Virus record (IMG/VR): IMGVR_UViG_3300044613_002805
Span: 1-60,175 of that record
Origin: a virus
Reading direction: 5' to 3' (one strand)
DNA length: 60,175 nucleotides
Numbering within the stretch: the stretch's first letter is position 1; every line of letters begins with the position of its first letter. A program made the position numbers and the translations under genes. Positions 17,894 to 46,497 of this stretch are shown piece by piece. Below the pieces are notes generated by a model, which saw only the letters and a program-made list of their open reading frames with translations, searched no databases and was not told the origin of the DNA.

Positions 17894-18649
17894 TTATGAA
17901 TTTAGGTTTTTCCTATATTCTGAAATAGAATTATTGAGGGCAACAAAGTCTTCATACAAACTGGTGGAATGTCCAAACTCTGTGTGAATATACATGAAGA
18001 TAAAGTATTTATCTCCTTCTCTTACTTCATATGCCATATGGGGCTCTGTGGTTTTAAATATCAAAGCACTTCCAGCTGCAGGCTTTAGAGTTATATTTGC
18101 TTCTGTAAACTCTATCTCTCCACCTTCATAGTTATCTGTTAGATAAAAAAGAACGGTATAGTCCATGGTGCTTCCTGGATCTTGATCATTCTTATCAATA
18201 TGAGTGCCTATAGAGCCACCAGTATTATATTTTTTCAGGGTATAGTTTTTAGAGACATAATCTAGCTTCTTGTGTCCAGTCTTCTCATACCAAATATCTA
18301 GGACCTTTAGATATGGTTCGTGAATTAAATGAATAACTGGATTTGCTATCTTGTGGGCATAGTCTCCAAGATCATCTTCTGGAAGTGGCCACACCCTATA
18401 ATTGTTAGTAGCTGATATGTTCCAATCAAATAGCTTTTGCTTTCCTTTGGGGGCATCATGATAGTTAACCTGCCATACACCATCTTCATCCTGGTACGGA
18501 ACACCGTCATACCAATCTCTCCAAGCTGGAATAACAGGATGAACTTGGGTATCTGAATCGAATCTCTCTATAGCATCGACAAAGTCCTGGGCACGTTCAA
18601 AGACATTTTCGATATATAGAATATCCTTAGAAAGATCTTTTACTATCAT
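17894..18649 (-). CDS. 2OG-Fe(II) oxygenase, prolyl-hydroxylase-like
   Basis: A 251-residue enzyme with H150 and D152 (THIDKND), distal H204 (EPHMAYEV) and K214 in the strand GDKYFIF where other copies have Arg. The core strand YTVLFYLTDNYEGGEIEF is typical of P4H-type enzymes. It begins at ATG 18649, 8 bases from a TATTAT box, and shares an overlapping divergent promoter with the 25-residue Cys-rich peptide. It is isolated from the main oxygenase array. Confidence 0.88.
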   Translation of the reverse strand: MIVKDLSKDILYIENVFERAQDFVDAIERFDSDTQVHPVIPAWRDWYDGVPYQDEDGVWQVNYHDAPKGKQKLFDWNISATNNYRVWPLPEDDLGDYAHKIANPVIHLIHEPYLKVLDIWYEKTGHKKLDYVSKNYTLKKYNTGGSIGTHIDKNDQDPGSTMDYTVLFYLTDNYEGGEIEFTEANITLKPAAGSALIFKTTEPHMAYEVREGDKYFIFMYIHTEFGHSTSLYEDFVALNNSISEYRKNLNS

Positions 18650-19231: not shown

Positions 19232-19870
19232 CTATATACCGCCGAAATCTCGCTCCGACAAAAATCGCTGATATTGCTTGACTTCACTGGCCCTGCCATA
19301 AAACAAAACCAGCGTATATCTTTTACCTGCGGTTACTTCGAAGACTTCATGTGGGTGATCAATATCGCCCCGAAAGAAAACCATCTTCCCAGCTTCTGGC
19401 GTTACCCTGATCTTTTGATTTGGAAATTCGATTTGACCGCCTTCGTAATCTACTCCCGAAGTATTCAAATATACTAGTGCCGAGAACTCAAGATTATCCA
19501 GCGCTTCATTATTATCGTCCCACGGAGTTCCATCCAGCATCACGCTATCGCAATGAAGTCCGTTGAACCCACCTTCGGCAACCTCTGCAAAAATCGAACT
19601 TGCAACCACAGCCTCTACATTATAAAATTTGCTGATCTCTTTTGCGACATCATTTACTATTTCCGTAAAAAGAGTTGCAGCGTCTAGCGACTCTTCGTTG
19701 TCGATAATTGGCTTACCGTCATAAATATTAAAGAGAGCTTTTGTCGGATCTTCGTACTGAGCTTCAGACATCCCGATACGATCACTCTTTACCAGGTAAG
19801 GGGACAAGCCATCAATTATTATTTTTGCTTGTTCGCCTGAAATGTAGTTATCGAATATTTGAACTGACAT
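19232..19870 (-). CDS. 2OG-Fe(II) oxygenase, prolyl-hydroxylase-like
   Basis: The 212-residue protein has H106 and D108 (LHCDSV), distal H174 (HPHEVFEV) and R184 (GKRYTLVLF), with the P4H-type strand FSALVYLNTSG...GGQIEFPNQKIRVTPEAG. AGGAGGG precedes ATG 19870 at good spacing, unlike the leaderless copies. Its base composition reads richer in CG and ATC/GCG codons than its neighbours, which may point to separate acquisition. Confidence 0.87.
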   Translation of the reverse strand: MSVQIFDNYISGEQAKIIIDGLSPYLVKSDRIGMSEAQYEDPTKALFNIYDGKPIIDNEESLDAATLFTEIVNDVAKEISKFYNVEAVVASSIFAEVAEGGFNGLHCDSVMLDGTPWDDNNEALDNLEFSALVYLNTSGVDYEGGQIEFPNQKIRVTPEAGKMVFFRGDIDHPHEVFEVTAGKRYTLVLFYGRASEVKQYQRFLSERDFGGI

Positions 19871-24452: not shown

Positions 24453-25472
24453 ATGCTAGGACTTCTATCTAAACTTGGTTCATCAAAAGGTATGGTTGTT
24501 ATGCCAGACCTTTATGGGCTTACCAGGGAGGAAGCTAAGAGCGCATTAGCATCTTCAAACCTCGTATTTGTTGGTGAAACATCAACAACTTCAACAACCA
24601 ATAGCGCCCTTGACAACAAAGTTGTTGCCCAATCTGTAGATGCTGGAACATTAATAAGTTATGAGACAGAGATAAGTTTCATTTTCTTATCTTATATATC
24701 CCCACCACAGCCATCAGTAATTTTAATAAATACAATAGACGGGTCTTGCGCTAATACTGGACAATTTACAACATCAACGTTTTGTAGCGGAACTACTTTA
24801 ATTATTACAGAGACATACTCAAGAGAAAGAACTGTAACATATCAGTATAGCGATGGCTCAAGCTCTACACAAATTCAGGCATGTTCCCCAACTACTACAA
24901 CTCAAAGCGTTGCCCTTTCTGCACAATGTGGTTATGTAGCACCAGCCCCAACGTGCACTGCTAATTGTGGTTCATATACTTGGTCAGCCTGCTCTGGCGG
25001 TACTCAAACAGGAACAAGGCAGTGTACAAGAAGCGATTGCAGTGTTGTTACAGAAACAACAACAAGATCTTGTTGCACAACAGGATGCGGTTCGTATACT
25101 TGGTCAGATTGCTCTGGAGGACAGCAATCTGGAACTAGGACATGCACCAGATCTGATTGCACTACATACAAAGAAACAGATTCTAGATGTTGCGGTGAAA
25201 CGGTTTATGGGCCATGGAGTTCTTGTGTTGGCGGTTATCAGGATAGGTCTATGACGACATATTCATCAGACTGTTCTTCAACTTCAAGAATTCAGACAAG
25301 GGGATGCTCTAGTCCAGCCCCTACCCCACCATTTTTCCCACCGTTTTTCCCTCCCTTCTTCCCACCATTTTTCCCACCGTTTTTTCCTAGATTCGGTCCA
25401 TTCTTCCCACCATTCTTCCCATTCTTCCCATTCTTCCCTAGATTCTCAACAGGCTGTCCACCACGTTGCTAA
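24453..25472 (+). CDS. PASTA plus thrombospondin-like surface protein with Phe-Pro stalk
   Basis: A 339-residue mosaic. Residues about 15-80 match a PASTA domain (VMPDLYGLTREEAKSALASSNL...VVAQSVDAGT), a fold that binds peptidoglycan/beta-lactams. Then come three Cys-rich repeats, CGSYTWSACSGGTQTGTRQC and similar, like thrombospondin type-1 modules. The end is a Pro/Phe tract (about residues 285-329, repeated FFPPFFPP) closing in STGCPPRC. This combination suggests a host-cell-wall binding appendage. The C-terminus CPPRC is shared with the protein at 33699. Confidence 0.75.
   Translation: MLGLLSKLGSSKGMVVMPDLYGLTREEAKSALASSNLVFVGETSTTSTTNSALDNKVVAQSVDAGTLISYETEISFIFLSYISPPQPSVILINTIDGSCANTGQFTTSTFCSGTTLIITETYSRERTVTYQYSDGSSSTQIQACSPTTTTQSVALSAQCGYVAPAPTCTANCGSYTWSACSGGTQTGTRQCTRSDCSVVTETTTRSCCTTGCGSYTWSDCSGGQQSGTRTCTRSDCTTYKETDSRCCGETVYGPWSSCVGGYQDRSMTTYSSDCSSTSRIQTRGCSSPAPTPPFFPPFFPPFFPPFFPPFFPRFGPFFPPFFPFFPFFPRFSTGCPPRC
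25321..25445 (+). repeat. Pyrimidine tract encoding Phe-Pro repeats (copy 1)
   Basis: About 120 bases of nearly unbroken TTC/TTT/CCA/CCG codons, coding FFP units. Such long polypyrimidine stretches can form triplex DNA and are prone to length change. Confidence 0.7.
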
Positions 25473-33698: not shown

Positions 33699-34586
33699 AT
33701 GGCAAAGAAAGAAGCTGGCGGAAGATCGTCACAACAGAATGACTTTTTAGAGCCAAAAGCTCCTATCAATGTTTCTGCAACTGACGTAGGAACAAACAGA
33801 CCGTTTAACGACGGTGCCGCCTCTGTTTCTTTTGAGCTTCCAGTAGAATCTCCTGCTGCAACTTCTTACACAGTTACCGCCACAGCCTCTGGTCAGACCA
33901 CAAGAACTGCTACAGGTTCTTCTTCCCCAATTACAGTTACAGGCCTTTCTTCTAATATTTCTTATTCAATTAGTGTTACTGCCACCAATGCTGCTGGAAC
34001 TTCTCCAGCATCTTCTTCTGTTAGCGTTACTGCTACTACCGTTCCAGCAAAGCCATCAGCACCAACCGCTACTGCACAGGTAGACCAGGATAGCGTTAGC
34101 TGGACAGAGCCAAATAACGGAGGAAAGGCAATTACTTCCTATTTCTGGGAAAGTAATGACAACAAGAGTGGCTCTACTACAAGCACTTCTGTTACTGTTC
34201 AGCAGGAAGGTTCAACCTCTCAGTCTTACCGTGTTCGTGCAACAAATGCTAACGGAGACGGAGAGTTTTCTGATTATTCTGGTCAAGTTACAACTACCCC
34301 ACCATTCTTCCCGCCATTTTTCCCACCGTTCTTCCCATTCTTCCCGTTCTTCCCTCCGTTCTTCCCACCGTTCTTCCCACCATTCTTCCCACCGTTCTTC
34401 CCATTCTTCCCACCGTTCTTCCCACCATTCTTCCCGTTCTTCCCGTTCTTCCCACCATTCTTCCCACCGTTCTTCCCATTCTTCCCACCGTTCTTCCCAC
34501 CATTCTTCCCTAGATTTGGCCCATTCTTCCCACCGTTCTTCCCATTCTTCCCAAGATTTGTTGGCGGATGTCCACCTCGCTGCTAA
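33699..34586 (+). CDS. Fibronectin-III plus Phe-Pro stalk surface protein
   Basis: A 295-residue protein. Two fibronectin type III domains (residues about 20-110 and 112-200; SYTVTATASGQTT, VTGLSSNISYSISVTATNAAG) precede a long tract of about 24 FFP/FFPP units (residues 200-285) and a C-terminus VGGCPPRC, shared with the protein at 24453. Fn3 domains are common on phage surfaces; the Phe-Pro tract is not known to me. The end is marked by a terminator and a new promoter. It is followed directly by the oxygenase array. Confidence 0.8.
   Translation: MAKKEAGGRSSQQNDFLEPKAPINVSATDVGTNRPFNDGAASVSFELPVESPAATSYTVTATASGQTTRTATGSSSPITVTGLSSNISYSISVTATNAAGTSPASSSVSVTATTVPAKPSAPTATAQVDQDSVSWTEPNNGGKAITSYFWESNDNKSGSTTSTSVTVQQEGSTSQSYRVRATNANGDGEFSDYSGQVTTTPPFFPPFFPPFFPFFPFFPPFFPPFFPPFFPPFFPFFPPFFPPFFPFFPFFPPFFPPFFPFFPPFFPPFFPRFGPFFPPFFPFFPRFVGGCPPRC
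34294..34555 (+). repeat. Pyrimidine tract encoding Phe-Pro repeats (copy 2, longest)
   Basis: About 260 bases made almost only of TTCTTC and CCACCG-like codons, with period near 12 (FFPP) and 9 (FFP). The antisense frame also stays open, an artefact of the repeat. Confidence 0.75.
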
Positions 34587-34606
34587 TCTAGAGTAGAAAT
34601 AGAAGG

Positions 34607-34642
34607 CTGCAAGTCAAAACTGGCTTGCAGTTTTTCTATTTT
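34607..34642 (+). terminator. Strong Rho-independent terminator
   Basis: CTGCAAG (34607-34613) and CTTGCAG (34624-34630) pair, followed by TTTTTCTATTTT; flanking AAATAGAA/TTCTATTT can extend the stem. Confidence 0.75.
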
Positions 34643-34653
34643 GATGGCTATGA

Positions 34654-34659
34654 TATAAT
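34654..34659 (+). promoter_or_regulatory. -10 box for a leaderless start: promoter of the oxygenase array
   Basis: TATAAT is 6 bases before ATG 34666, directly after the terminator. Confidence 0.6.
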
Positions 34660-34665
34660 TGCTAT

Positions 34666-35424
34666 ATGGAACAGCAAAAACTAGTAAATCCTTGGCTTAC
34701 CAAAGATAGATCTGAAACATATTCAAACAGAATGCCAGACAGGACTACTGTCCGTGGGGTATCAGTGTCAAATCCAGCACTTGGAATAAACATTTACAAT
34801 AACGCCATTTCTTTAAATGACTGTAAAAGCATTATAGAAACTCTAGAATCAAAGCTTACAAATAGCACAAGCAGCGTCTATAAGTGGCACGGAGCCATGG
34901 TGACAGAGTCAGATGCAGTTCTTTCTGATGCAAGGGATTGCGTAGACTTTAAGATTAATACAACTGCGTATGGCCCAAGAAATCCAGAAAACTCAGAACT
35001 TTATGATATGCATGAAAAAGCTTTTCAGGCAATTCACCCAAACGTTCAAGACTATGGTGAATACTGGGGCGTAGGAATATCTTATTACGAGGCCTTTAAC
35101 TTTGTTAAATATGAGGGTGCAGGAAAACACTTTAACATACACGCAGATCATGGCCCAGCATATGTAACAACTGTCTCAGTTGTAGCATACCTAAATGATG
35201 ACTATGAAGGTGGGGAGCTGTACTTTCCAAGATTTGATTTAACAATTAAACCGAAGCCAGGAGATATTGCGGTATTCCCATCTACATATATTTATGAACA
35301 TGCCTCATTGCCAATGAAAAGTGGCACAAAGTATTCCGTTGTAGTTATGACAGACTATAACGATCGTGGTGGTCTAAGATATCACCCGTATAGACAAGAA
35401 GATCCTAATAAGATAACTTACTGA
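34666..35424 (+). CDS. 2OG-Fe(II) oxygenase (array member 1)
   Basis: The 252-residue enzyme has H159 and D161 (IHADHGPA), distal H212 (YEHASLP) and K222 in TKYSVVVM, Lys instead of Arg for 2OG. It keeps AYLNDDYEGGELYFP, the P4H-type strand pair. An N-terminal arm of about 70 residues is unique. It is the first gene of the array, close relative of the next gene. The likely reaction is hydroxylation of Pro, Lys or a small molecule; the substrate is unknown. Confidence 0.88.
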   Translation: MEQQKLVNPWLTKDRSETYSNRMPDRTTVRGVSVSNPALGINIYNNAISLNDCKSIIETLESKLTNSTSSVYKWHGAMVTESDAVLSDARDCVDFKINTTAYGPRNPENSELYDMHEKAFQAIHPNVQDYGEYWGVGISYYEAFNFVKYEGAGKHFNIHADHGPAYVTTVSVVAYLNDDYEGGELYFPRFDLTIKPKPGDIAVFPSTYIYEHASLPMKSGTKYSVVVMTDYNDRGGLRYHPYRQEDPNKITY

Positions 35425-35434
35425 TTGGTGGAAA

Positions 35435-36139
35435 ATGGAAAACGTCGAAGACATTGCTAAAAGAATTAACGAGTACTACACGATTAACGAACAAACCTGG
35501 TCATCTGTAGAGGAGCTGTCACCTGGTATATTTGTTTACCACGATGTGCTTCCTACAGACATGAATATCATAAATAGGCTTGAAGAAGTTCTAGACGATA
35601 AGACAAACTATTATAACTATATGGAAGCAATGGTGGGGTATGGCACTAAGATGCCAGAATACCGTGACTGTTGGGATTTCAAGTATAAGAAAACAGATAT
35701 TATGCATGATCCGTCTCCAGCATCTCAAAAGCTCCAGCAGTTGTGGCAAGATGTTTATGACAAAGAAATCGCAGCAGTAAAAGATTACTCAAGACGGTTT
35801 AATGTTGGAGAGCTTCGTTACTGGGAAGCAATGAACTTCGTAAAGTATGGTCCAGGACAGCACTTTCAAGAGCATTCTGACAATGGATATTCCTATAACT
35901 GTGTTGTCTCTTTAGTTGCGTACCCAAATGACAACTACACTGGCGGGGAGTTAGAGTTTAGGCTACAGGGTCTAAAGGTAAAGCCAAGAGCTGGAGATCT
36001 TTTTATCTTCCCATCCAACTATATGTATCCTCACAAGTCATTGCCAGTAGAATCTGGAATAAAGCACTCTATTGTAACAATGCTGGATTATTCAGATAAG
36101 TATCATAATCCAAAGTTCTACCAAGAGACAGGTTCCTGA
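35435..36139 (+). CDS. 2OG-Fe(II) oxygenase (array member 2)
   Basis: A 234-residue paralogue of the preceding gene: H147, D149 (EHSDNGYS), distal H200 (YPHKSLPVESG) and K210 (IKHSIVTM), with LxxYPNDNYTGGELEF. It shares SLPxxSGxKxS with 34666. Its ATG at 35435 follows that gene's stop by 10 bases and its stop overlaps the next start (TGATG). Confidence 0.88.
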   Translation: MENVEDIAKRINEYYTINEQTWSSVEELSPGIFVYHDVLPTDMNIINRLEEVLDDKTNYYNYMEAMVGYGTKMPEYRDCWDFKYKKTDIMHDPSPASQKLQQLWQDVYDKEIAAVKDYSRRFNVGELRYWEAMNFVKYGPGQHFQEHSDNGYSYNCVVSLVAYPNDNYTGGELEFRLQGLKVKPRAGDLFIFPSNYMYPHKSLPVESGIKHSIVTMLDYSDKYHNPKFYQETGS

Positions 36140-36858
36140 TGCCAAAAGTCACAGCCTACACTGGTGGCCACCACGGAAACATAGATCAGCTACCACTACA
36201 CCGTGACTGGATGGATATTACTTTTGATAGACACGCATATCAGTGCTTTCCAATCTCCTTATCAAATAGACTTGGCTGGGGAATTTCCTATCCAGAAGAT
36301 ATCACGTTTATTTGGGACGGGATTAATGATTCTACAGGGGATCACGTAAAGGTTTTGTCTGGGTCTCAGTGGGCACATCCAAATCGTGGTAACAGGACCA
36401 TCAGTTTTTATACTGACCTGACCTTTGTAAAAGAAAATAACGAAAACCTAACTCTTTTAACTATGCCAGTTCCTAATCAGTTTATTAGAGGAGCTCAGTG
36501 TATGACTACGCTTATAAGCACATCTGTTTTACTAGGAGATCTCCCGATTGCTTGGATGATAACAGAACCAAATATTGAAATAACGATACCAGCAAATACT
36601 CCGATTGCCTCTATTTTGCCAATATCTCTCACCGACATTCAGTCACACGAGCTAGAGGTTCGGAATGGAAGGCCAGATTATGAAGATCTTAAATGGCAAG
36701 AAAACATGAGAGACCGTGGTACAGCCAGCCAAGAGAAAAACTCTAAGGGAGAGTGGACACACTTTTACAGAGATGCCGTTGATCACAATGGAAATTCTGC
36801 AGGAAATCACGAAGCTAAAAAGATTCTTATGAAAGTTATAAATAATGCCAAAAATTAA
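36139..36858 (+). CDS. DUF6065-like protein
   Basis: The 239-residue protein shows the layout I associate with DUF6065: a start RDWMDITFDRHAYQCFPISLSNRLGW, ISYPEDITFIWDG, a FYTDLTF strand and ITIPANTPIASILP near residue 150. The function is unknown; relatives occur near 2OG oxygenases in phages and bacteria (from memory, unchecked). It sits between oxygenases and overlaps the next gene by 14 bases, so it is clearly part of the pathway. DUF6065 assignment is tentative. Confidence 0.6.
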   Translation: MPKVTAYTGGHHGNIDQLPLHRDWMDITFDRHAYQCFPISLSNRLGWGISYPEDITFIWDGINDSTGDHVKVLSGSQWAHPNRGNRTISFYTDLTFVKENNENLTLLTMPVPNQFIRGAQCMTTLISTSVLLGDLPIAWMITEPNIEITIPANTPIASILPISLTDIQSHELEVRNGRPDYEDLKWQENMRDRGTASQEKNSKGEWTHFYRDAVDHNGNSAGNHEAKKILMKVINNAKN

Positions 36859-37570
36859 ATTTTTAGCAAACAGGGGATGGCTATCTGGAAAAGATCCATC
36901 AACGCCAGAGCCAGTATCTAAGAGTCTGCCAGAATGGTACACGTCTGCGGATAGGTTCTACAAGGGCCCAGATGGAACAAGTTTTATTGGGGCGGATGGC
37001 GGAAAGGTTCCAACCTGGAAGGCTTGTCCAGCAATATATGACATTTTTATTACTGGCTATGTATACAGAACTCCATGCGACATTGAGTTCTTCCTTGACA
37101 GCAAGAATGAGATTTCAGCCAAGGTTTTAGATCCTAAATACTCTGACTTTATTCAGTTTAGAGATCCAATGCCTCAGTTTGAGCATCCAAAGGGATATTA
37201 CAAGAAGCATTTTGCCTGGTACCCAGATTGGGCTGTAGCTACACCAAAAGGCTATAGCGTACTATATTCTCAGCCATTCGGTAGGTATGACTTACCGTTT
37301 ATGACAACAAGTGGAATTGTAGACAACGACAAGGTGAATCTGCCAGGAACCTTCCCATTCTTTATACAAGAAGGGTGGACTGGCGTAATTCCAGCGGGAA
37401 CGCCATATTCTCAGATGATACCATTTAAGAGAGAAGATTGGGAGTCTGAATACGAGTTTGACTCTGGCCTTTCTATAATGAAAAAGAACATGGAAAACTC
37501 AAAGAAATATCGAGTTCCTAGCGGTGGTGTATACTTGAAAGAGGTCTGGGAAAGACGAAAGTATGAATAA
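36845..37570 (+). CDS. Conserved phage protein related to the DUF6065-like gene
   Basis: A 241-residue protein with ACPAIYDIFITGYVYRTPCDIEF near residue 60 and the strong motif FFIQEGWTGVIPAGTPYSQMIPFKREDW near residues 180-205. I recall the second motif from T4-like cyanophage and other phage proteins of unknown function. It may share a fold with its neighbour (both end in an ...PAxTPxxxxxP loop). It belongs to the same transcription unit. Confidence 0.6.
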   Translation: MPKIKFLANRGWLSGKDPSTPEPVSKSLPEWYTSADRFYKGPDGTSFIGADGGKVPTWKACPAIYDIFITGYVYRTPCDIEFFLDSKNEISAKVLDPKYSDFIQFRDPMPQFEHPKGYYKKHFAWYPDWAVATPKGYSVLYSQPFGRYDLPFMTTSGIVDNDKVNLPGTFPFFIQEGWTGVIPAGTPYSQMIPFKREDWESEYEFDSGLSIMKKNMENSKKYRVPSGGVYLKEVWERRKYE

Positions 37571-37584
37571 CAAGGAGACTTATA

Positions 37585-38259
37585 ATGGAAAACTTAACTA
37601 ACAATCATATTGTTGATCGGGTTTCAATTACCCCATCAGGATTTTTTGGGTCATCCCCAGAAAACATTGTTACCCTGGAAGACTTTATGACTGATGAGGA
37701 GCTGACAGCTCTAAATGACTTCATCAGAAGCAACGAAAACTGGGATCAGACAGAAACCCATTATAACGAAAACGGAACTGTCATTTATGATGCTGGATAT
37801 TGGGACAATCGTGTAGCAACCTATCCGACTATTCAAAAAACAAATCCAGAAATTCCTGTGATTATTGAAGGAATGGTCGCAAGATTAAAAATAGAGGTAG
37901 ATAAGTTCTTTGGCGTAGACGCTCTTCCTACTAGCCCAGCAATGGTCAGATGGCTTCCAGGCCAACTACAGATGCCACACGCAGATAAAGAGCTTCACAC
38001 GGGACCAGACGCAGGTAAGCCAAATGACTTCCCGTATTACGACATTGCAGGTCTTTTCTACATTAACGATGATTACGAGGGCGGAGAGCTGTATTTTCCA
38101 AACCAAGATATTAGGTTCAAGCCTAAGAGGGGTGCCGCATACTTTTTCCCTGGAGATATGAATTATATTCATGGAGTATCAGAGATTATCTCTGGAATTA
38201 GATATACTGTACCGTTCTTTTGGACCATTCTTTCTCATAAAGAAAAAGAATCTGAGTAA
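37585..38259 (+). CDS. 2OG-Fe(II) oxygenase (array member 3)
   Basis: The 224-residue protein has H132, D134 (PHADKELH), distal H196 (YIHGVSEI) and R206 (IRYTVPFFW), with LFYINDDYEGGELYFPNQDIRFKP. GGAGA precedes ATG 37585. It is a standard P4H-type oxygenase. The next gene begins two bases after its stop. Confidence 0.9.
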   Translation: MENLTNNHIVDRVSITPSGFFGSSPENIVTLEDFMTDEELTALNDFIRSNENWDQTETHYNENGTVIYDAGYWDNRVATYPTIQKTNPEIPVIIEGMVARLKIEVDKFFGVDALPTSPAMVRWLPGQLQMPHADKELHTGPDAGKPNDFPYYDIAGLFYINDDYEGGELYFPNQDIRFKPKRGAAYFFPGDMNYIHGVSEIISGIRYTVPFFWTILSHKEKESE

Positions 38260-38260
38260 A

Positions 38261-38989
38261 ATGCATGGAACAAGCTATATTACCTATATAGATGTTCCAA
38301 ACATAAATGGGACTGCTGGAGTTGACCAAAACAAGGTTATAGAAGTCTTAGACTTTTTAGATAAAGATACTTGCAACAGCTTAATTAATTATATAGATGC
38401 TAACTCGGAAAGATGGAATCATTTTGCCTCATATGAGTATCGACTTGGCAAGTCTCCAAAGCCAGATTTAAGTTTTGAACTATTTGGCCTACCATCAGAT
38501 TTTATAGGTAGGCTAGTCAAAGATATCAAGCAGATGACATCTTCTGTTTTTCTAAAGGAAATCTCTTTAAACACAATCCATGCACAAAGATTTGGCAAAG
38601 GCGGATCTGGCTCGGTACATTCTGATAACACCAATGAGGATGGGTCGGATAGTCATTATGAAATTAATAAGTATGCAGCAATTATCTATCTAAATGACCA
38701 ATATTCTGGTGGAGAGATATATTTTCCAGAACATGACCTGAGCATTAAGCCAAGGGCTGGATCCATGCTTCTTTTTCCAGGAGGAAAGGAAAATCTCCAC
38801 GGCGTAAATGAAATTGTTTCTGGATATCGGCACACAATCATATCTTTTTGGGATTTTGCTGAGTCAAAATACTCAGAAGAACGAGAGTTGTGGAGAGCAG
38901 ATAGCATGAAAAAATGGTCTGATTCTTGGCAGGTAGAGTGGGAAAAAGAATGGAAGTCTAGATGGGCTCTCTTAAATTTCATTGATTAA
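38261..38989 (+). CDS. 2OG-Fe(II) oxygenase (array member 4)
   Basis: I start at ATG 38261, two bases past the previous stop, not at the longer frame from 38171 that overlaps it. The 242-residue protein has H120, D122 (VHSDNTNEDG), distal H180 (NLHGVNEI) and R190 (YRHTIISFW). The C-terminus is Trp-rich (WADSMKKWSDSWQVEWEKEWKSRW), probably a helical tail for binding. Confidence 0.88.
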   Translation: MHGTSYITYIDVPNINGTAGVDQNKVIEVLDFLDKDTCNSLINYIDANSERWNHFASYEYRLGKSPKPDLSFELFGLPSDFIGRLVKDIKQMTSSVFLKEISLNTIHAQRFGKGGSGSVHSDNTNEDGSDSHYEINKYAAIIYLNDQYSGGEIYFPEHDLSIKPRAGSMLLFPGGKENLHGVNEIVSGYRHTIISFWDFAESKYSEERELWRADSMKKWSDSWQVEWEKEWKSRWALLNFID

Positions 38990-39010
38990 TTAGGCTTTTC
39001 CACCATCTGC

Positions 39011-39016
39011 TATAAT
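39011..39016 (+). promoter_or_regulatory. -10 box inside the oxygenase array
   Basis: TATAAT with a 23-base leader holding AAGGAG before ATG 39040, so the array has at least a second entry point. Confidence 0.5.
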
Positions 39017-39039
39017 ATATTTAAAAGGAGTGCTTAAAC

Positions 39040-39786
39040 ATGAACTTGGCCAATAAAAATAGGATTACTAATGATATAGTCCTTTATGAGAATTTTCTAA
39101 CCCCAGAAGAGTCTCAAAAAATTATAAAGATTTTAGACAAGGTTGCTGAAACTGGCAAAATTACATGGATGCCTATATCATTCTATGAGTCTTATTCTTC
39201 TGTTTTGCCACAAGATGGCGATCAGGAGATTCTAGACGAGGGCCTTGATTCTGATATTTTTTCAAAAATTAAGCAGGGAATTATTGAAGCCGTAGCGTCT
39301 GTTCATGACCTAGATCCAAAAACAATTGTTCAGATTGGGTACCACACACAAAAGTGGGAACCAGGGGCATATGCAAGAGTTCATTCTGATAATACAGACG
39401 AACACGGAAACTCTGGGCCGTTTACTAGAAGCAGATACGCAGCATTCCTTTATCTAAATGATGATTTTGGTGGAGGACTTCTAAGGTTTCCATCGCAAGA
39501 TATAGAAATTAAGCCAAAGGTTGGAATGCTTGCAGCATTTGACGGTGGCTTTAACAATATGCATGAGGTTACCTTGATTGAGTCAGGTGTTAGGTATACA
39601 ATTGGATCTTTCTGGGACGACCGTGAAGAAGATGCATACCCTCAAGAGCTGAGAGACGCCTGGGCCGAAGAAATGAAAAAGATTAGAGATGGCCAGGAGC
39701 TGGAAAGAAAAGAGTGGCAGGATCTATTGAAAGAAGGATACAAAATAGACATGCACGGAAATAAGTATAAGGTAGAAGACCTATAA
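39040..39786 (+). CDS. 2OG-Fe(II) oxygenase (array member 5)
   Basis: The 248-residue protein has H115, D117 (RVHSDNTDEHG), distal H175 (MHEVTLIESG) and R185 (VRYTIGSFW). The strand FLYLNDDFGGGLLRFPSQDIEIKP is a clear P4H core. A charged helical tail follows, as in the gene at 38261. Both share HSDNT and W-D-x-R, so they are close paralogues. Confidence 0.9.
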   Translation: MNLANKNRITNDIVLYENFLTPEESQKIIKILDKVAETGKITWMPISFYESYSSVLPQDGDQEILDEGLDSDIFSKIKQGIIEAVASVHDLDPKTIVQIGYHTQKWEPGAYARVHSDNTDEHGNSGPFTRSRYAAFLYLNDDFGGGLLRFPSQDIEIKPKVGMLAAFDGGFNNMHEVTLIESGVRYTIGSFWDDREEDAYPQELRDAWAEEMKKIRDGQELERKEWQDLLKEGYKIDMHGNKYKVEDL

Positions 39787-39787
39787 A

Positions 39788-40447
39788 ATGATTACGTCGT
39801 TAAAAGAAGTATTGAAGAGCAATGGTGTCCATTTTGAAGAGCTAACAGATGAGCTCTTATCTATCGATAACTTCTTGACAGACGAAGAGCTAGACTTTCT
39901 TTGGAGCAAGATTAATGCAGCCTCCCAGTCAGACTGGGAAATTGAATATATGTCAAACCTAAAAAATTTTTGTCTAGAAAAGTTTGGAAGAGAAGACGTA
40001 GACAATCTTGTTGCTGAAGGAAAGTTTGAAATTACCCAGAACTGGGTAGATAAAAATCTTAACATAAGTAAATACCCAGAATATAACATTTTTTATGAAA
40101 GACTCGCCTCGATGGTCAGAGAATCCGATGACTCACTAGAGCTTAGCGGACTCGCAACAATCCAAAGAATGCAGCCAGAGGTTGAGCTAAAGTCTCATAC
40201 TGATCAACATACAGACCCATCTATTAGATACGCAGCTATTGTATACATTAATGACGACTATAACGATGGCGAGTTGTTCTTTAAAAACTTAGGCCTAAAG
40301 CTAAGGCCAAAGCCAAAATGCTTGTTAATTTTTCCAGGTAACGAAAAGTATGAGCATGGAGTAGAATTTGTTTCAGAAGGCCCAATTAGATATGTCCTAG
40401 TGGGCTTTATAAAAGAGGTTGGACACTATCAAAGGAATAGGTACTAA
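39788..40447 (+). CDS. 2OG-Fe(II) oxygenase (array member 6; paralogue of 228)
   Basis: The 219-residue protein has H137, D139 (SHTDQHTDPS), distal H190 (YEHGVEFV) and R201 (IRYVLVGF). It is the closest relative in the window of the enzyme at 228-896: the same FLTDEE start, KFEIT, HTDPS and RY-end. Both have an N-terminal helix with KFG(R/H)(E/D)D. Its ATG follows the previous stop by one base. Confidence 0.9.
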   Translation: MITSLKEVLKSNGVHFEELTDELLSIDNFLTDEELDFLWSKINAASQSDWEIEYMSNLKNFCLEKFGREDVDNLVAEGKFEITQNWVDKNLNISKYPEYNIFYERLASMVRESDDSLELSGLATIQRMQPEVELKSHTDQHTDPSIRYAAIVYINDDYNDGELFFKNLGLKLRPKPKCLLIFPGNEKYEHGVEFVSEGPIRYVLVGFIKEVGHYQRNRY

Positions 40448-40448
40448 T

Positions 40449-41150
40449 ATGAAAAAGCAAGTATTGCATGAAAAGGTTTTCTACTATGAAGATGCCGTTG
40501 AAAACTTCAAAGAGGTTATGGATACAATTAAAGAGTTGGATGAAATAGGTGCATCAGAGGGAAATCCATTATGGCAAGATTGGACATCTTCAAACGATAA
40601 GTCCTTTATATATGGAGAAACTCAGTCATTTGATCTTAATCAGATTAGGCATATGGAAGAGCCATATAGAAGTAAGTCTGAGTTTATCTATATAAGTATC
40701 ATGAAGTCTCTTTACAATGTTTGCAAAGACTATGCTTCGTCAATTGGAGATACCGATGAGCCACGGCTATTTCCAGTTTTCAACATTAAGAAGTACAACA
40801 CTGGTGCCGCAATGGGGGCACACTATGATCAGCTTGATGGAGACAAGACTCTGAGATATTCGTTAGTCATGTATCTAAATGAAGTTCCCGAGGGTGGAGA
40901 AATATCATTTAAATTATCGGACTATGAAGATCACCACCAAGTGGTTAGCCCAGATCTAGACTATGATGTTGCAGTAAAAAATAATCAAATAGACTTCGGG
41001 GTAAAGCCAAGTGCTGGAAGTGTTATTATTTTCCCATCTTCTGCCCCATACTACCATATCGCTCACACAGTCAAGTCTGGTGTTAAGTACATGATTCCTA
41101 GCCACTGGATTCACAATGACATGGACATGAGGGATGGTTGCAGTGTATAA
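40449..41150 (+). CDS. 2OG-Fe(II) oxygenase (array member 7)
   Basis: ATG 40449 is chosen because it follows the previous stop; the longer frame from 40419 overlaps it. The 233-residue protein has H125, D127 (GAHYDQLDGD), distal H206 (YYHIAHTVKSG) and K213 (VKYMIPSHW). An insert (about residues 156-182) is unique to this copy. The end overlaps the next gene by 17 bases. Confidence 0.88.
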   Translation: MKKQVLHEKVFYYEDAVENFKEVMDTIKELDEIGASEGNPLWQDWTSSNDKSFIYGETQSFDLNQIRHMEEPYRSKSEFIYISIMKSLYNVCKDYASSIGDTDEPRLFPVFNIKKYNTGAAMGAHYDQLDGDKTLRYSLVMYLNEVPEGGEISFKLSDYEDHHQVVSPDLDYDVAVKNNQIDFGVKPSAGSVIIFPSSAPYYHIAHTVKSGVKYMIPSHWIHNDMDMRDGCSV

Positions 41151-41991
41151 CTTTGATATTGAAAAAATACAGGACACTGTCTGGGTATTTAAGAAGGCTA
41201 TTAAAAATCCGCAAGACTTCATTGACTATTTTGAGAAAAATAAAGAGTGGAAAGACTGGTATACCTTTGGAAAGCATGCGGAAGGCACTCAGTTTGCCGT
41301 TAAGTTTCAAAATTTTCCAACTATAGAGGAGTGGGAGTATGAAAAAGATCACAACCCACTAGACTTTACAAGAGATGGGTATTTTGAAAATGAGATTAAC
41401 GATCTTTTCTACAATGCTACAAAACTTTATGTAGAGGCAAACGACGTTTCTCTTGACAACTGGGTTTATGAAGGCTGGAACATTGCAAAATACGAAGAAA
41501 AACCAGACAGTCCGCTAGAGTACGCCATGGTGCATCATACAGATTTTCAGAGAGAGTTTGCATACAATCCTGGATCTAAGTTTGGGGTAACTGCTGTATT
41601 TTACCTAAATGATGATTATGAAGGCGGAGATGTTATGTTTAGGTTCCTAGACGAAAACGATACATCTATAATCAAAGAAGACTATACCTATAAGCCGCAG
41701 GCTGGAGACATTGTTGTATTTATGTCTGGACACCCACACTATCACGGTGTAAAGAAGGTTTCTAAGGGTGAAAAATATATAGTTAGAACTTATTGGAGAT
41801 ACCTTTACGAGGGGCATCCTCTTTGGCTAAAGCTTCAAGAGAAATATGGGCCAGATATCTGGAAGCAACTAGAAGATGAGAGGCTAAAGTTTAATAGAAA
41901 TAGCGACAACATCAAGATGGTCAACAACATCCCATTCTGGGTTGAATTTGAAGAATATTATAAAAAAGAGATAGAGTCTTTAAATCTATGA
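41134..41991 (+). CDS. 2OG-Fe(II) oxygenase (array member 8)
   Basis: The 285-residue enzyme is the largest of the set: H135, D137 (VHHTDFQRE), distal H204 (PHYHGVKKV) and K214 (EKYIVRTYW), with VFYLNDDYEGGDVMF. A C-terminal Trp/Lys-rich helix (EGHPLWLKLQEKYGPDIWKQLEDERL) is added. ATG 41134 lies inside the previous gene. Confidence 0.88.
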   Translation: MVAVYNFDIEKIQDTVWVFKKAIKNPQDFIDYFEKNKEWKDWYTFGKHAEGTQFAVKFQNFPTIEEWEYEKDHNPLDFTRDGYFENEINDLFYNATKLYVEANDVSLDNWVYEGWNIAKYEEKPDSPLEYAMVHHTDFQREFAYNPGSKFGVTAVFYLNDDYEGGDVMFRFLDENDTSIIKEDYTYKPQAGDIVVFMSGHPHYHGVKKVSKGEKYIVRTYWRYLYEGHPLWLKLQEKYGPDIWKQLEDERLKFNRNSDNIKMVNNIPFWVEFEEYYKKEIESLNL

Positions 41992-42656
41992 AAACGGCCA
42001 TTGTTACTGGATCAAGCAAAGGCGTAGGGCTGGCCACAGTCAAGCTTCTTGCTGAGAATGGTTATCGGGTTATCGCTGTGTCCAGAGACTTGTCAAGGGT
42101 CTCAGAATTGGCATCTGAAAATATTGAGGTCTATAAGCTAGATATTACTCAGCCAAAAGAGATAAAAGAATTCTTTGAAAAGTATAAAGACATAACCCTA
42201 GATCTTCTTGTCAATAATGCTGGCGGTGGATCAAGCCCAACCAGCATCATTAATGAAACAATGGATAACTTCAGGGTTGCCTATGACATAAACGTTTCTG
42301 GTCCAATGTACCTATCTCAGCTTTTTGTTCCATGCTTAAAAAAATCGGACTCCCCGACAATTATTTTTGTGACATCTCTTTCTGGAAAGGTGCCATTTAG
42401 AGGAGGCGGTAACTATACCAATGCAAAAAGAGGCATGATGGCTTTGGTCGACACCATGAGAATGGAGTTTCCACAGTACGGTATTAAGGTTACAGAGATA
42501 TGCCCAGGAACAATAGATACACAGGTTGAGAAAAAAGATAACGCTCTAACGGCAGAAGACATGGCGGAAGCTATCAGATGGGTGTCCTCTTTGCCAAAAC
42601 ACTTCAACATAAATCACCTGGAAGTAAGCAATATTTTTAACAGTAAGTATATGTGA
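41988..42656 (+). CDS. Short-chain dehydrogenase/reductase (SDR)
   Basis: The 222-residue protein has the nucleotide-binding TGSSKGVG (residues 7-14), NNAG (76-79), a Ser near 130, and the catalytic Tyr143-x-x-x-Lys147 (YTNAK). SDRs oxidise or reduce alcohol/carbonyl groups using NAD(P). Its position between oxygenases suggests it acts on a hydroxylated product, such as turning an alcohol into a ketone (inference). Coupled to both neighbours. Confidence 0.88.
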   Translation: MKTAIVTGSSKGVGLATVKLLAENGYRVIAVSRDLSRVSELASENIEVYKLDITQPKEIKEFFEKYKDITLDLLVNNAGGGSSPTSIINETMDNFRVAYDINVSGPMYLSQLFVPCLKKSDSPTIIFVTSLSGKVPFRGGGNYTNAKRGMMALVDTMRMEFPQYGIKVTEICPGTIDTQVEKKDNALTAEDMAEAIRWVSSLPKHFNINHLEVSNIFNSKYM

Positions 42657-42660
42657 TAGC

Positions 42661-43227
42661 ATGGAGATTAACAAATTACACGAAGATGTTTATGAGATTA
42701 ACAACTTTCTTTCTGGAGAAGAGTTCCAAGAAGTCCTTAATGTCATAAATGCACTTAGCGAAAAAGACTGGTTTTCCGAAGACACGGCACAAGACAAAGA
42801 TTTTGCAGATTTTTGGTACGGGAAAAACCTAGAGTTTAAAACAGACAACATTTTTAAAGAAATTAATAATAAAATGGAGTCACTATTTGAGTCCTACCAC
42901 TACTACCCATCTAATCTTCTTTTGCAAAGGTACAAGATAGGTGACTTTATTCAGCCACATACTGATCAGTGGAATCCAGATTTGCCATACTATATCGGAT
43001 ATGGTTTTTGCTTATATTATAATGACGACTATGAGGGCGGAGAGCTAGAATATCCAGAGCTGGGTATAACTGTTAAGCCAAAAGCAAATTCTCTGTACAT
43101 TCATGGCGGACACATAAGGCACGGATCAAAGCCAGTATTAAATGATAAAATAAGATACTTTTCAACTGTTTTTGTAAGGGGAACAGACGAGAAACCAACA
43201 AGACTAAAAGGAGATTTGTTTAAATGA
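42661..43227 (+). CDS. 2OG-Fe(II) oxygenase (array member 9)
   Basis: The shortest member, 188 residues, with H100, D102 (PHTDQWNPD), distal H154 (IRHGSKPV) and R165 (IRYFSTVF), and YYNDDYEGGELEYPELGITVKP. It lacks an N-terminal extension. Its stop overlaps the next start by four bases. Confidence 0.88.
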   Translation: MEINKLHEDVYEINNFLSGEEFQEVLNVINALSEKDWFSEDTAQDKDFADFWYGKNLEFKTDNIFKEINNKMESLFESYHYYPSNLLLQRYKIGDFIQPHTDQWNPDLPYYIGYGFCLYYNDDYEGGELEYPELGITVKPKANSLYIHGGHIRHGSKPVLNDKIRYFSTVFVRGTDEKPTRLKGDLFK

Positions 43228-43805
43228 CACACCAGATAACACAGCAAGAGCACTTTATTCTAGAAATCTTAAAAAAGAAGAAAAATGGGTACTATGTTGA
43301 GCTAGGAGCAGCACACTATAGCGAAGGAAATAATACCTACCTATTAGAGCAAGATTATGACTGGAAGGGTGTGTCTTTTGAAATTATAGACTCTATGCGA
43401 GAAGAGTTTAACTTAAATAGAATGAATCCCTGCATGGGGGATGCCCTATCGTTTAACTATATTGAATACTTTGAAAAAAATGAGTTCCCAAAGCAGATAG
43501 ACTATCTTCAACTAGATATTGATGCAGGATATGATTTCGCTGGGAGACCAGTAGGAAATAGTCACTGGACACTACAGGGACTTGTCGCTGTGCCCCTAAA
43601 TACTTATAGATTTAGCATTATTACGTTTGAGCATGACGCAAACATGTACTGGAAAAACAGTACAATTAGAGATGCTCAAAGAGAAATCCTAGATTCTTTT
43701 GGATATTCTTTGGTACACAGGTCATTTCACGAAGACTGGTGGGTAGATCCAAACGTAATTGGTCATGGGGAATACCGAGACTTCTTACACTGGCAAACAC
43801 TCTAG
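43224..43805 (+). CDS. Class I methyltransferase-like protein, FkbM-type
   Basis: The 193-residue protein shows the Rossmann methyltransferase pattern: motif I GYYVELGAAHYSEGNN (residues 21-36), then GVSFEI (strand 2), a DAL step and DYLQLDIDAG (strand 4). FkbM-type enzymes methylate hydroxyls on sugars or small molecules. With the oxygenases and the SDR next to it, it could cap hydroxyl groups (inference). SAM binding is expected, not shown. Confidence 0.65.
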   Translation: MTHQITQQEHFILEILKKKKNGYYVELGAAHYSEGNNTYLLEQDYDWKGVSFEIIDSMREEFNLNRMNPCMGDALSFNYIEYFEKNEFPKQIDYLQLDIDAGYDFAGRPVGNSHWTLQGLVAVPLNTYRFSIITFEHDANMYWKNSTIRDAQREILDSFGYSLVHRSFHEDWWVDPNVIGHGEYRDFLHWQTL

Positions 43806-43833
43806 CTTATTGCAGGGCATCTTGGCAATCTGG

Positions 43834-43839
43834 TATAAT
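43834..43839 (+). promoter_or_regulatory. -10 box
   Basis: TATAAT with a 32-base leader holding AGGAG before GTG 43872. Confidence 0.5.
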
Positions 43840-43871
43840 AAATATATTCAGCACTTGCAAAAGGAGTATAT

Positions 43872-44567
43872 GTGGACTATCAAGAAGCACTTGACAAATA
43901 TCTGGTAAGCCAGGTATCTATTTATCCACCATTTTTCTCTCCACTATGGATTAAGACCTCTAACTTTAATCCTAAGATATATGCTGAAAACATTTTTTAT
44001 TATGAAAATGTTGTTTTTCATCCAGATCAAGTTTTAGCTGCGATAGAAGAATCAGAAATAATCATAAAGGATACTGATGCCATTGGAAAGTGGCAGCCAT
44101 GGGTGGGTAAGGACGACATAGTCTTGCCAGACGGAAGGAATAGCGATTACGTATTTGGAGAGACAAAGACTACAAATCCCAAAAAGTATTTGACTAGTTC
44201 TCCAGCCGTACAGTTTGCTTTTGGACAAATTAAGAATTCTTTGACATTTACTACAGACCACTATGCGTCTTTGCTGGGAATAGATCCAGGAAAGATGTCA
44301 ACAATTATGATAAGCAAATACTTTACTGGAGCAGAACTAGGGCTTCATACCGACTCATATAGGGACAATGCCTATCTATCAGCTGTCCTGTATTTAAATG
44401 ATGACTATGAAGGCGGAGAAATCGTTTTCCCTAATCAGGATGTAAAGATTAAACCTTCGGCTGGAAGCATTATTGTCTTCCCATCGCTAGAGCCATTTTT
44501 CCATGAGTCTTTAAAGGTCACTTCTGGAGAGAAATATATGTGCTCTGTGTTCCTTTTTAAGGACTAA
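43872..44567 (+). CDS. 2OG-Fe(II) oxygenase (array member 10)
   Basis: The 231-residue protein has H159, D161 (LHTDSYRD), distal H211 (FFHESLKV) and K221 (EKYMCSVF), with VLYLNDDYEGGEIVFPNQDVKIKP. It starts at GTG 43872, five bases after AGGAG. Last oxygenase, directly before the fibre gene at 44597. Confidence 0.9.
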   Translation: MDYQEALDKYLVSQVSIYPPFFSPLWIKTSNFNPKIYAENIFYYENVVFHPDQVLAAIEESEIIIKDTDAIGKWQPWVGKDDIVLPDGRNSDYVFGETKTTNPKKYLTSSPAVQFAFGQIKNSLTFTTDHYASLLGIDPGKMSTIMISKYFTGAELGLHTDSYRDNAYLSAVLYLNDDYEGGEIVFPNQDVKIKPSAGSIIVFPSLEPFFHESLKVTSGEKYMCSVFLFKD

Positions 44568-44596: not shown

Positions 44597-45595
44597 ATGT
44601 CATTTGTTAGAGTCCAGCTGCGAAGAGGTTTTGCCGAAGAGTGGGAAGAGGGTAACCCAATCCTTGCCCCAGGAGAAATTGGTGTAGAGCAGGATAGCGG
44701 AAAGTTTAAGCTCGGTAACGGTATCGATGCTTGGCTAGATCTACCATATGCGCAAGCAACGGCATACGACATTGCTGTTGAAAATGGATTTACTGGAACA
44801 GAACAGCAGTGGCTAGACTCTCTAGCAACAAACTTGTCGATTGCATCTGTTCAAACCATTGACCATGAGGATCCAGCCCAGGTTATTCTTGGAGGAACTC
44901 ATCCAAACAGAACGCTTACTTTTTTAATTCCAAAAGGCCAGCCAGGTCCCACAGGTGCAACAGGTGCTCAGGGGCCTAGGGGTGAAGCTGGAGCAGCTGG
45001 ACCGACTACCATTACCTGGCAAGGCGTATGGAGTCCAGCAGTCGATTATGGTATAAACGATGCTGTCTATCACGACGGATTTTCTTGGTTCTCTGCAGTA
45101 GATCCAAATGTCGGACATGAGCCAGATGAGACATCGTCATTTTGGTACAAAGTTAACCTAAATGTTATTGGAGAAGAGGGGCCCCAAGGACCTGCTGGAC
45201 CTGCTGGACCAGGCGTAGATAATTTTTCAGAACTTGGAGATGTAGACGTTGTTTCTGTTCAAAATGGAGACAGCATTATTTATGACTCTGCAACACAAAA
45301 GTGGGTTCCAGGAGCACCAGCTTCAAATCTTAATGACCTTTCAGATGTAAATATTACGACGGTAGCTAATAACGATTCTCTTATTTATAACTCATCAACA
45401 CAGACCTGGCAAGCTGGAACAACCCCAAGATCTCTTGCTAGCCTATCTGATGTAAACGCAACTTCTCCGCAAGATGGTCATATTTTGATGTATAACTCTG
45501 GGAACGCAAAGTGGGAAACAGGAATGAGAATTTTTGTGCAGCCCCCAACGCAGACTCCGTCTAATGCAACAAATGGTGATCTCTGGATTTGGTAG
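44597..45595 (+). CDS. Tail fibre with Mtd-N-type head and collagen-like segments
   Basis: A 332-residue protein. Residues 1-50 (MSFVRVQLRRGFAEEWEEGNP...GEIGVEQDSGKFKLGNG) match the Mtd-N-type domain at 31119. Two collagen-like runs follow: GPTGATGAQGPRGEAG near residues 115-135 and GPQGPAGPAGPG near 195-206, then three SLSDVN-type repeats (ELGDVDVV, DLSDVNIT, SLSDVNAT). A fibre that could be a substrate for the neighbouring oxygenases. Confidence 0.8.
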   Translation: MSFVRVQLRRGFAEEWEEGNPILAPGEIGVEQDSGKFKLGNGIDAWLDLPYAQATAYDIAVENGFTGTEQQWLDSLATNLSIASVQTIDHEDPAQVILGGTHPNRTLTFLIPKGQPGPTGATGAQGPRGEAGAAGPTTITWQGVWSPAVDYGINDAVYHDGFSWFSAVDPNVGHEPDETSSFWYKVNLNVIGEEGPQGPAGPAGPGVDNFSELGDVDVVSVQNGDSIIYDSATQKWVPGAPASNLNDLSDVNITTVANNDSLIYNSSTQTWQAGTTPRSLASLSDVNATSPQDGHILMYNSGNAKWETGMRIFVQPPTQTPSNATNGDLWIW

Positions 45596-45606: not shown

Positions 45607-46497
45607 ATGGCAAGCTCTTCATTTTCCAATAGACCACAGCACGTTTTACGACTTACTGTTAGTCAAAGCAACCTAACTGACACAACGGTAGATGTTACCT
45701 GGACCGCAAGGGTTACTACTAGCGGAAATGTTAATACACCATTCGGTACTGGAACGGCAAACCCATCTCAAAGTCCAACTACAACATACGTTAGTGGTAC
45801 AACTAACGCACAGTATAACGTCCCGTACGACTATAGATCTCCAAACCAAAACTATACAATAGAACTGGGAAGCGGAACTAGAAGGGTAAACCGTGGCTCT
45901 GGAAACTATAGCTTCAATATTACCGTCTCCCTTGGATCTCTTATTGGTAGCGCATCAGTTTCGGAACCATACACGGCACCATCCCTTCCTGGACCATTCT
46001 TTCCACCGTTCTTCCCTCCATTCTTTCCTCCGTTCTTCCCTCCATTCTTTCCACCATTCTTTCCACCATTTTTCCCATTCTTCCCGACCTTTATACCGTC
46101 ACCATCTTGGATAACCAATTCAGACTTAGGGGCAGTTAGAAATAATATTTCAGTATCAATACAGCTAGAGGCGGCTCATGCTACATCCTATTCAATTGTC
46201 AATGGAGAGCTTCCAGTCGGACTAGCTATGTCTTCTTCTGGACTAATCTTTGGAGCTCCAAGCTCTACAAAGCAAGGGTTGTCATTTACAGTAAGCGCTA
46301 CTGGACAGACTGCTCCATCAACTGAAAGAACGTTTAACATACAGATTCTTCCAGGTGGAAAGAGAATGGATGATTCGATGACATTTGTTCCGCTGACGCT
46401 TATTAAGAGATATGACTCTTCGACACAGCAATGGATCGATGTGGAGTTTATATCAAGAAATCAGGGTGAAGATGATTGGTCTGGTCAGACCTCTTGA
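45607..46497 (+). CDS. Surface protein with Phe-Pro stalk and putative-Ig (He_PIG) domain
   Basis: A 296-residue protein: an N-terminal strand-rich domain (residues 1-125), a shorter FFPPFFPP tract (about residues 130-160) and a C-terminal domain with AHATSYSIVNGELPVGLAMSSSGLIFGAP, the mark of He_PIG repeats. Here the Phe-Pro stalk is internal, unlike at 24453 and 33699 where it is terminal. It is coded by the second fibre block. Confidence 0.75.
   Translation: MASSSFSNRPQHVLRLTVSQSNLTDTTVDVTWTARVTTSGNVNTPFGTGTANPSQSPTTTYVSGTTNAQYNVPYDYRSPNQNYTIELGSGTRRVNRGSGNYSFNITVSLGSLIGSASVSEPYTAPSLPGPFFPPFFPPFFPPFFPPFFPPFFPPFFPFFPTFIPSPSWITNSDLGAVRNNISVSIQLEAAHATSYSIVNGELPVGLAMSSSGLIFGAPSSTKQGLSFTVSATGQTAPSTERTFNIQILPGGKRMDDSMTFVPLTLIKRYDSSTQQWIDVEFISRNQGEDDWSGQTS
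45990..46090 (+). repeat. Pyrimidine tract encoding Phe-Pro repeats (copy 3)
   Basis: About 100 bases of TTC/TTT and CCA/CCG codons giving FFPP units, shorter than the other two. Confidence 0.7.

Follow-up and report, generated by a model that had tools for sequence, protein, structure and literature searches.

What would a phage do with ten 2-oxoglutarate (2OG)-Fe(II) oxygenases encoded one after another, and what would these enzymes act on? The question is raised by the 60,175-base sequence of an uncultured virus, IMG/VR record IMGVR_UViG_3300044613_002805, the whole of which is referred to here as the window. Between positions 34,666 and 44,567 its + strand carries fourteen genes, ten of them encoding PF13640 oxygenases of the prolyl 4-hydroxylase (P4H) type. 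An original prediction made from the DNA letters had proposed that this array modifies the fibres encoded on both sides of it. That proposal is supported and can be narrowed, as the key feature of the locus had been overlooked: the genes that adjoin the array code for fibre-locus proteins containing long (P)PFF repeats. The array is probably a fibre-maturation operon whose enzymes would hydroxylate the prolines of these repeats, a chemistry that we infer. The candidate substrates are the first two proteins listed below and probably the third:

33699-34586, + strand: fn3-domain protein with 14 PPFF units at its C-terminus (ending in RFVGGCPPRC), the proposed main substrate.
45607-46497, + strand: second PPFF protein, with an internal repeat of 6 PPFF units.
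24453-25472, + strand: third PPFF protein, with a PASTA domain, Cys/Trp repeats, a C-terminal PPFF repeat and a GCPPRC end.
44597-45595, + strand: fibre protein with an Mtd_N domain (PF18454, 1.9e-9) and short collagen-like Gly-X-Y stretches.

All three PPFF genes are placed among tail-fibre genes (Mtd_N, collagen-like), and in relatives it is the orthologue of the first that occupies the position upstream of the array. Across 156 distinct repeat proteins, FF pairs are separated by one or two residues; all 716 of 716 double linkers are PP and all 364 of 364 single linkers are P, and the third position of the repeat unit is occupied by F (1916), Y (266), S (37), R (28), H (19) or W (11). The codons for the repeat prolines are mixed (CCA 1386, CCG 683, CCT 302, CCC 36), with third bases that vary freely, which led to the rejection of a DNA-level cause of the repeat. 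As the linker prolines are invariant while their codons vary, selection acts on the protein, and proline is the invariant residue on which these enzymes could act. In relatives the repeat precedes an S74-like chaperone end (PF13884 in one scanned member) or a Hint-like segment, and the repeat protein thus fits a fibre protein. In seven loci (L014, L033, L041, L051, L062, L069 and L074) a segment resembling the Hint/intein type (DTLI...AKDIKIGD) lies directly 3' of the PPFF repeats, so that some repeat proteins may be self-processed. A cysteine-containing variant repeat, PFFPNFCPAFCP, is found upstream of the same oxygenase cassette in L264, L265, L268 and L276-L278, and the Cys/Trp repeats before the PPFF tail of 24453-25472 are thrombospondin-like.

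The association of repeat and oxygenase was assessed on viral loci fetched solely by the DNA pattern for PPFFPPFFPPFF (PPFF three times over), 119 of them among the matches listed. Oxygenases were counted with a hidden Markov model built from the thirteen oxygenases of the window; this model is biased to relatives of the window's own enzymes, and Pfam PF13640 on whole records agrees with it. The repeat loci held 315 oxygenases in 999 kb, or 3.15 per 10 kb, with at least one in 88 of the 119 listed loci, compared with 0.21 per 10 kb in loci with relatives of the window's portal protein, 0.09 in loci with collagen-like GPx x5 repeats and 0.00 in loci with a scrambled (PF)x6 pattern. Fisher tests gave 2e-30 against the collagen-like and 2e-19 against the portal loci, values that overstate the independence of the loci. 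A further 20 of the 31 oxygenase-free repeat stretches have PF13640 elsewhere in the record, bringing the total to 108 of the 119 listed records. The arrangement is directional: in 65 of 79 loci the repeat and its nearest oxygenase share a strand, and in all 65 the oxygenase lies downstream of the repeat; the median gap across all 79 is 147 bp. Clustering these nearest oxygenases leaves 18 clusters at 60% identity (15 same-strand and downstream), 6 at 40% (4) and 2 at 30% (1).

The reverse test gave a matching picture. A P-x-F repeat lies within 6 kb upstream in 48 of 52 loci that were selected by oxygenase profile and have at least 1.5 kb of upstream sequence, the repeat of L582 being a variant. 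Loci selected with O2, the second oxygenase of the array, have the strict repeat in 64 of 80 cases. The remaining 16 include seven with a variant repeat, and in most of the others the sequence begins close to the oxygenase. Within the portal clade, arrays occur in just 2 of 28 long records (10 and 9 oxygenases), and both have the repeat. A bacterial origin of the repeat was rejected: just nine pattern matches were found in 84,980 bacterial genomes, three of which encode an extended repeat, all in contigs of metagenome-assembled genomes (MAGs), and two of these three have a same-strand oxygenase. The MAG contigs L290 and L292, labelled Verrucomicrobiales and Gammaproteobacteria, carry PYF/PFF/PHF repeats with same-strand oxygenases and are probably phage contigs.

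These counts bear on the idea that the oxygenases modify other fibres (collagen-like, Mtd_N) or host surface glycans, with the PPFF gene a mere neighbour in a tail-fibre island. The array is indeed flanked by Mtd_N and collagen-like fibre genes, and families of N-acetylglucosamine (GlcNAc) transferase, epimerase and carbamoyltransferase occur near some relatives. Oxygenase density is, however, negligible at collagen-like loci and low at portal-matched loci when set against that near PPFF, and an Mtd-type gene is matched in 28 of the 119 listed repeat loci as opposed to 58 for DUF6065, a gene of the array. We regard this explanation as unlikely; on the same densities, collagen-like Gly-X-Y repeats were rejected as a general oxygenase partner.

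The reading as a proline-hydroxylating operon also depends on what the enzymes are. The genes of the array, all on the + strand, are:

34666-35424, + strand: oxygenase O1, P4H-type (PF13640 5.6e-12), best PDB match Bacillus anthracis-type P4H.
35435-36139, + strand: oxygenase O2 (PF13640 2.1e-13).
36139-36858, + strand: DUF6065 protein (PF19541 1.4e-23, 84.1 bits against a cutoff of 26.6).
36845-37570, + strand: phrog_7084 protein, by match to that family.
37585-38259, + strand: oxygenase O3 (PF13640 2.8e-6).
38261-38989, + strand: oxygenase O4 (PF13640 1.5e-10).
39040-39786, + strand: oxygenase O5 (PF13640 2.2e-8).
39788-40447, + strand: oxygenase O6 (PF13640 3.3e-8), 43% identical to the oxygenase at 228-911.
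40449-41150, + strand: oxygenase O7 (PF13640 1.1e-9).
41134-41991, + strand: oxygenase O8 (PF13640 2.4e-11).
41988-42656, + strand: short-chain dehydrogenase/reductase (SDR; PF00106 8.8e-42).
42661-43227, + strand: oxygenase O9 (PF13640 2.7e-6).
43224-43805, + strand: 193-residue protein with a VELG motif, methyltransferase-like by eye alone, with no library match.
43872-44567, + strand: oxygenase O10 (PF13640 1.3e-12).

Three more PF13640 oxygenases lie outside the array:

228-911, - strand: paralogue of O6 (2.4e-9).
17894-18649, - strand: PF13640 oxygenase (9.1e-16).
19232-19870, - strand: PF13640 oxygenase (1.4e-14).

All thirteen exceed the Pfam cutoff of 27 bits, those of the array with 28.6-51.5 bits, and in alignment all thirteen keep the HxD motif, the distal His and the Arg/Lys, so that the ten P4H-type enzymes with intact catalytic motifs that had been proposed are borne out. 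H159, D161 and H212 are invariant across the ten, and pairwise identity among the thirteen is mostly 16-30%, with a maximum of 43%. A profile of the ten array sequences matched, in the PDB, bacterial P4H (3itq, 5hv0; 3e-16), Chlorella-virus P4H (1.5e-9) and Chlamydomonas P4H (1.7e-7), as well as P3H1, PHD2, LH3 and PKHD-type hydroxylases. By sequence, the nearest characterised relatives of the array enzymes are thus peptidyl-prolyl/lysyl hydroxylases, and prolyl hydroxylation activity is predicted. Several oxygenase reading frames in other loci exceed 350 residues and have long extensions (L079:5522-7057, L101, L178, L092, L114, L060 and L087); the long N-terminal part of L079:5522-7057 looked by eye like a glycosyltransferase, an assignment that was dropped, as Pfam recognises the oxygenase alone.

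The cassette is kept as a unit. The order PPFF-O1-O2-DUF6065-phrog_7084-O3-(O4)-O5-O6-O7-O8-SDR-O9-43224 is retained in relatives down to about 55% identity, near relatives keeping it orthologue by orthologue at 55-97% identity. A second lineage has the order O1-phrog_7084-O2-DUF6065-O3, indicating that a core stays together though shuffled. This core consists of O1, O2, O3, DUF6065 and phrog_7084, present in 117-146 searched loci (O2 in 136, O3 in 146); O4-O10, the SDR and the 43224 gene are accessory (14-49 searched loci). Compared with L209, the ratio of nonsynonymous to synonymous substitution rates (dN/dS) is 0.01-0.16 wherever dS is measurable, and all measurable cassette genes are under purifying selection; O4, O8 and O10 are the fastest-evolving oxygenases of the array. 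The density that had been called exceptional is real as regards the ten oxygenases, and is matched elsewhere: loci of relatives reach 11, and the isolated Synechococcus phage S-SCSM1 has seven around its tail fibres.

A second explanation holds that a small molecule or sugar attached to the fibre is what the enzymes synthesise or alter, the polypeptide itself not being hydroxylated. The SDR within the operon would suit such a pathway, as would several families that occur in relatives: PhyH, TauD, radical SAM-SPASM, epimerase and GlcNAc transferase. The ten-enzyme profile is nevertheless closest in sequence to peptidyl hydroxylases, and the core includes neither the SDR nor the 43224 gene (24 and 14 loci), which makes this explanation improbable. 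More improbable still is action on DNA bases, in DNA repair or on the host 2OG pool: earlier work has interpreted the 2OG oxygenases of phages as serving DNA repair or metabolism, such roles having been proposed for cyanophage enzymes (PMC3037559), but no nucleobase oxygenase is among the PDB sequence relatives of the ten-sequence profile at E<=1e-3, and the array is tightly linked to a fibre repeat, not to replication genes. DNA bases, an alternative target in the original prediction, are disfavoured because those relatives are prolyl and lysyl hydroxylases. It is hardly credible that the array merely arose as a side product of gene duplication, most of its copies being redundant or decaying. 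In favour of this idea, the array consists of ten tandem paralogues of one superfamily. It is contradicted for most copies, however, since all ten keep their catalytic residues, measurable dN/dS is low, orthologue order is conserved and paralogue identity is mostly below 30%; the fast-evolving O4, O8 and O10 could be the exception.

Under the preferred reading of a fibre-maturation operon, the phage would, late in infection, produce fibre or adhesin proteins containing a stiff repeat of proline and aromatic residues, PP-x-F or P-x-F with x mostly Phe, as a component of the virion. The P4H-type enzymes encoded downstream would, with Fe(II), O2 and 2OG, hydroxylate the repeat prolines before assembly, and each enzyme may be responsible for its own position or grade of oxidation. 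DUF6065 and phrog_7084 would be regular partners of the core hydroxylases, perhaps, at a guess, as substrate-holding or scaffold subunits, while the SDR and other accessory enzymes may provide further decoration in some lineages. The order of hydroxylation, oxidation and methylation suggested earlier is unsupported, because the methyltransferase was not confirmed and both the SDR and the 43224 gene are accessory.

Several points weigh against this reading. Eleven of the 119 listed repeat records have no oxygenase, all of them contigs of less than 39 kb, and L577 has an oxygenase and no recognised repeat. Because the loci are phylogenetically related, the effective sample falls short of what the P-values suggest. 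The collagen-like stretch in 44597-45595, which scores below cutoff, is another possible substrate, and the need for ten enzymes on one repeat is unexplained. For the Chlorella virus PBCV-1, whose genome encodes a P4H, an unpublished analysis, as cited in PMC7019647, found no hydroxyproline in the virions.

The layout of the array is consistent with a unit of expression. Its genes are separated by gaps of -17 to +66 bp and are 98.9% coding, which confirms the tight packing described before, and its left boundary is marked, as had also been proposed, by a terminator and a promoter element:

34602-34635, + strand: terminator-like hairpin, 3' of the repeat gene 33699-34586 and left of the array.
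34651-34659, + strand: extended -10 box TGATATAAT, ending 6 nt 5' of the ATG at 34666.

Since the hairpin and the box mark the left end, the array is possibly a separate, perhaps leaderless transcript. Among 51 homologous intergenic regions, 33 have hairpins and 12 have a -10-like box 3-12 nt 5' of the start codon.

Among the partner genes, the SDR is secure, with TGSSKGVG and YTNAK meeting the TGxxxGxG and YxxxK motifs in addition to its Pfam match. The two genes described as DUF6065-like are in part so: 36139-36858 is a DUF6065 protein, and 36845-37570, with no Pfam match at E<=1, is not a member of PF19541; it belongs to phrog_7084 and is related to the DUF6065 gene only distantly (hhalign E 6.7e-5, probability 64%). 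DUF6065, with no match in the phage collection, is found in all 80 O2 loci and in none of 80 portal loci. AlphaFold models of the two proteins (predicted local distance difference test scores of 86 for DUF6065 and 89 for phrog_7084) have top Foldseek matches that are all dUTPase/dCTP deaminase, but weak (E 0.02 and 2e-3), and this likeness in the models is read as a borrowed beta-fold. Homologues of phrog_7084 occur in haloarchaeal tailed viruses of the Hafunaviridae (HSTV-2, HCTV-7; L515, L517), where they have the tail-adhesin module on one side and genes for thymidylate synthase or ribonucleotide reductase on the other. The supposed FkbM-like methyltransferase at 43224-43805 finds no match in Pfam, NCBIfam or PDB, PF05050 giving none even at E<=10.

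Known systems offer partial parallels. Bacillus anthracis-type P4H, which in the PDB is closest in sequence both to O1 and to the ten-enzyme profile, is associated with collagen-like peptides; it differs in being a cellular, single enzyme. PBCV-1 P4H (5c5t) is likewise a viral P4H-type enzyme, from an algal giant virus unlike the phage of the window, and PBCV-1 is not known to have a fibre-linked oxygenase array. In plants and algae, P4H (Chlamydomonas 2jig) acts on the proline-rich structural repeats of hydroxyproline-rich glycoproteins, an analogy of logic alone, with Ser-Hyp or Ala-Hyp there as opposed to a Pro-Phe repeat in the phage. The PBCV-1 enzyme and its peptide substrates were characterised in a 1999 paper that appears in the reference lists of PMC9301287 and PMC7019647.

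Marine cyanophage 2OG-Fe(II) oxygenases (PHROG 61, Kyanoviridae) belong to the same superfamily, at 24-33% identity among the matches listed. S-SCSM1 (L512, MK867354.2 207793-228263) has its seven annotated oxygenases within 9 kb around two tail-fibre genes, and differs from the phage of the window in having no PPFF repeat in the genes examined. Its short tail fibre (L512:6087-7352) contains a long Pro/Arg-rich insertion (RQPRNFRQPR...); oxygenases around such a fibre suggest that the idea extends beyond PPFF and make S-SCSM1 a cultured model for the fibre-hydroxylation hypothesis. In Synechococcus phage S-SCSM2R (L516, PQ898602.1), several 2OG oxygenases share an island with glycosyltransferases, a radical SAM maturase and an amidinotransferase. 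By portal, the closest isolates are Streptomyces phages of the Stanwilliamsviridae such as Yaboi (47% identity), which have the portal-protease-capsid order in common with the window, and an actinobacterial host is therefore plausible on portal similarity; Yaboi differs in having no annotated oxygenase in its first 50 kb. The phage of the window would seem to be of a "freshwater type".

A tblastn search for the PPFF protein in isolated phages gave no match, which is weak evidence as the low-complexity filter masks the repeat, and no paper on "PPFFPPFF" or a PPFF repeat was found in the literature searched, where subscription journals are largely absent. According to a recent Baltic virome survey, viral use of prolyl 4-hydroxylase "remains cryptic" (PMC9301287). 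The present analysis provides a specific, repetitive substrate candidate, tied to viral hydroxylases by genome context in many phages and with controls. It is about an even call whether, in a large group of uncultured phages, part of the virion is made of a Pro-Pro-Phe-Phe structural polymer matured by the phages' own multi-enzyme hydroxylation line of several to eleven oxygenases with DUF6065 and phrog_7084. Such a line would be the phage counterpart of collagen or hydroxyproline-rich glycoprotein biosynthesis; its substrate motif would be new, and so, possibly, would its chemistry, which might yield 3-hydroxy-, 4-hydroxy- or dihydroxyproline or else beta-hydroxyphenylalanine. If true, this would reveal a new proline/aromatic structural polymer, give DUF6065 a context, and add a varied collection of hydroxylases, presumably with different site specificities.

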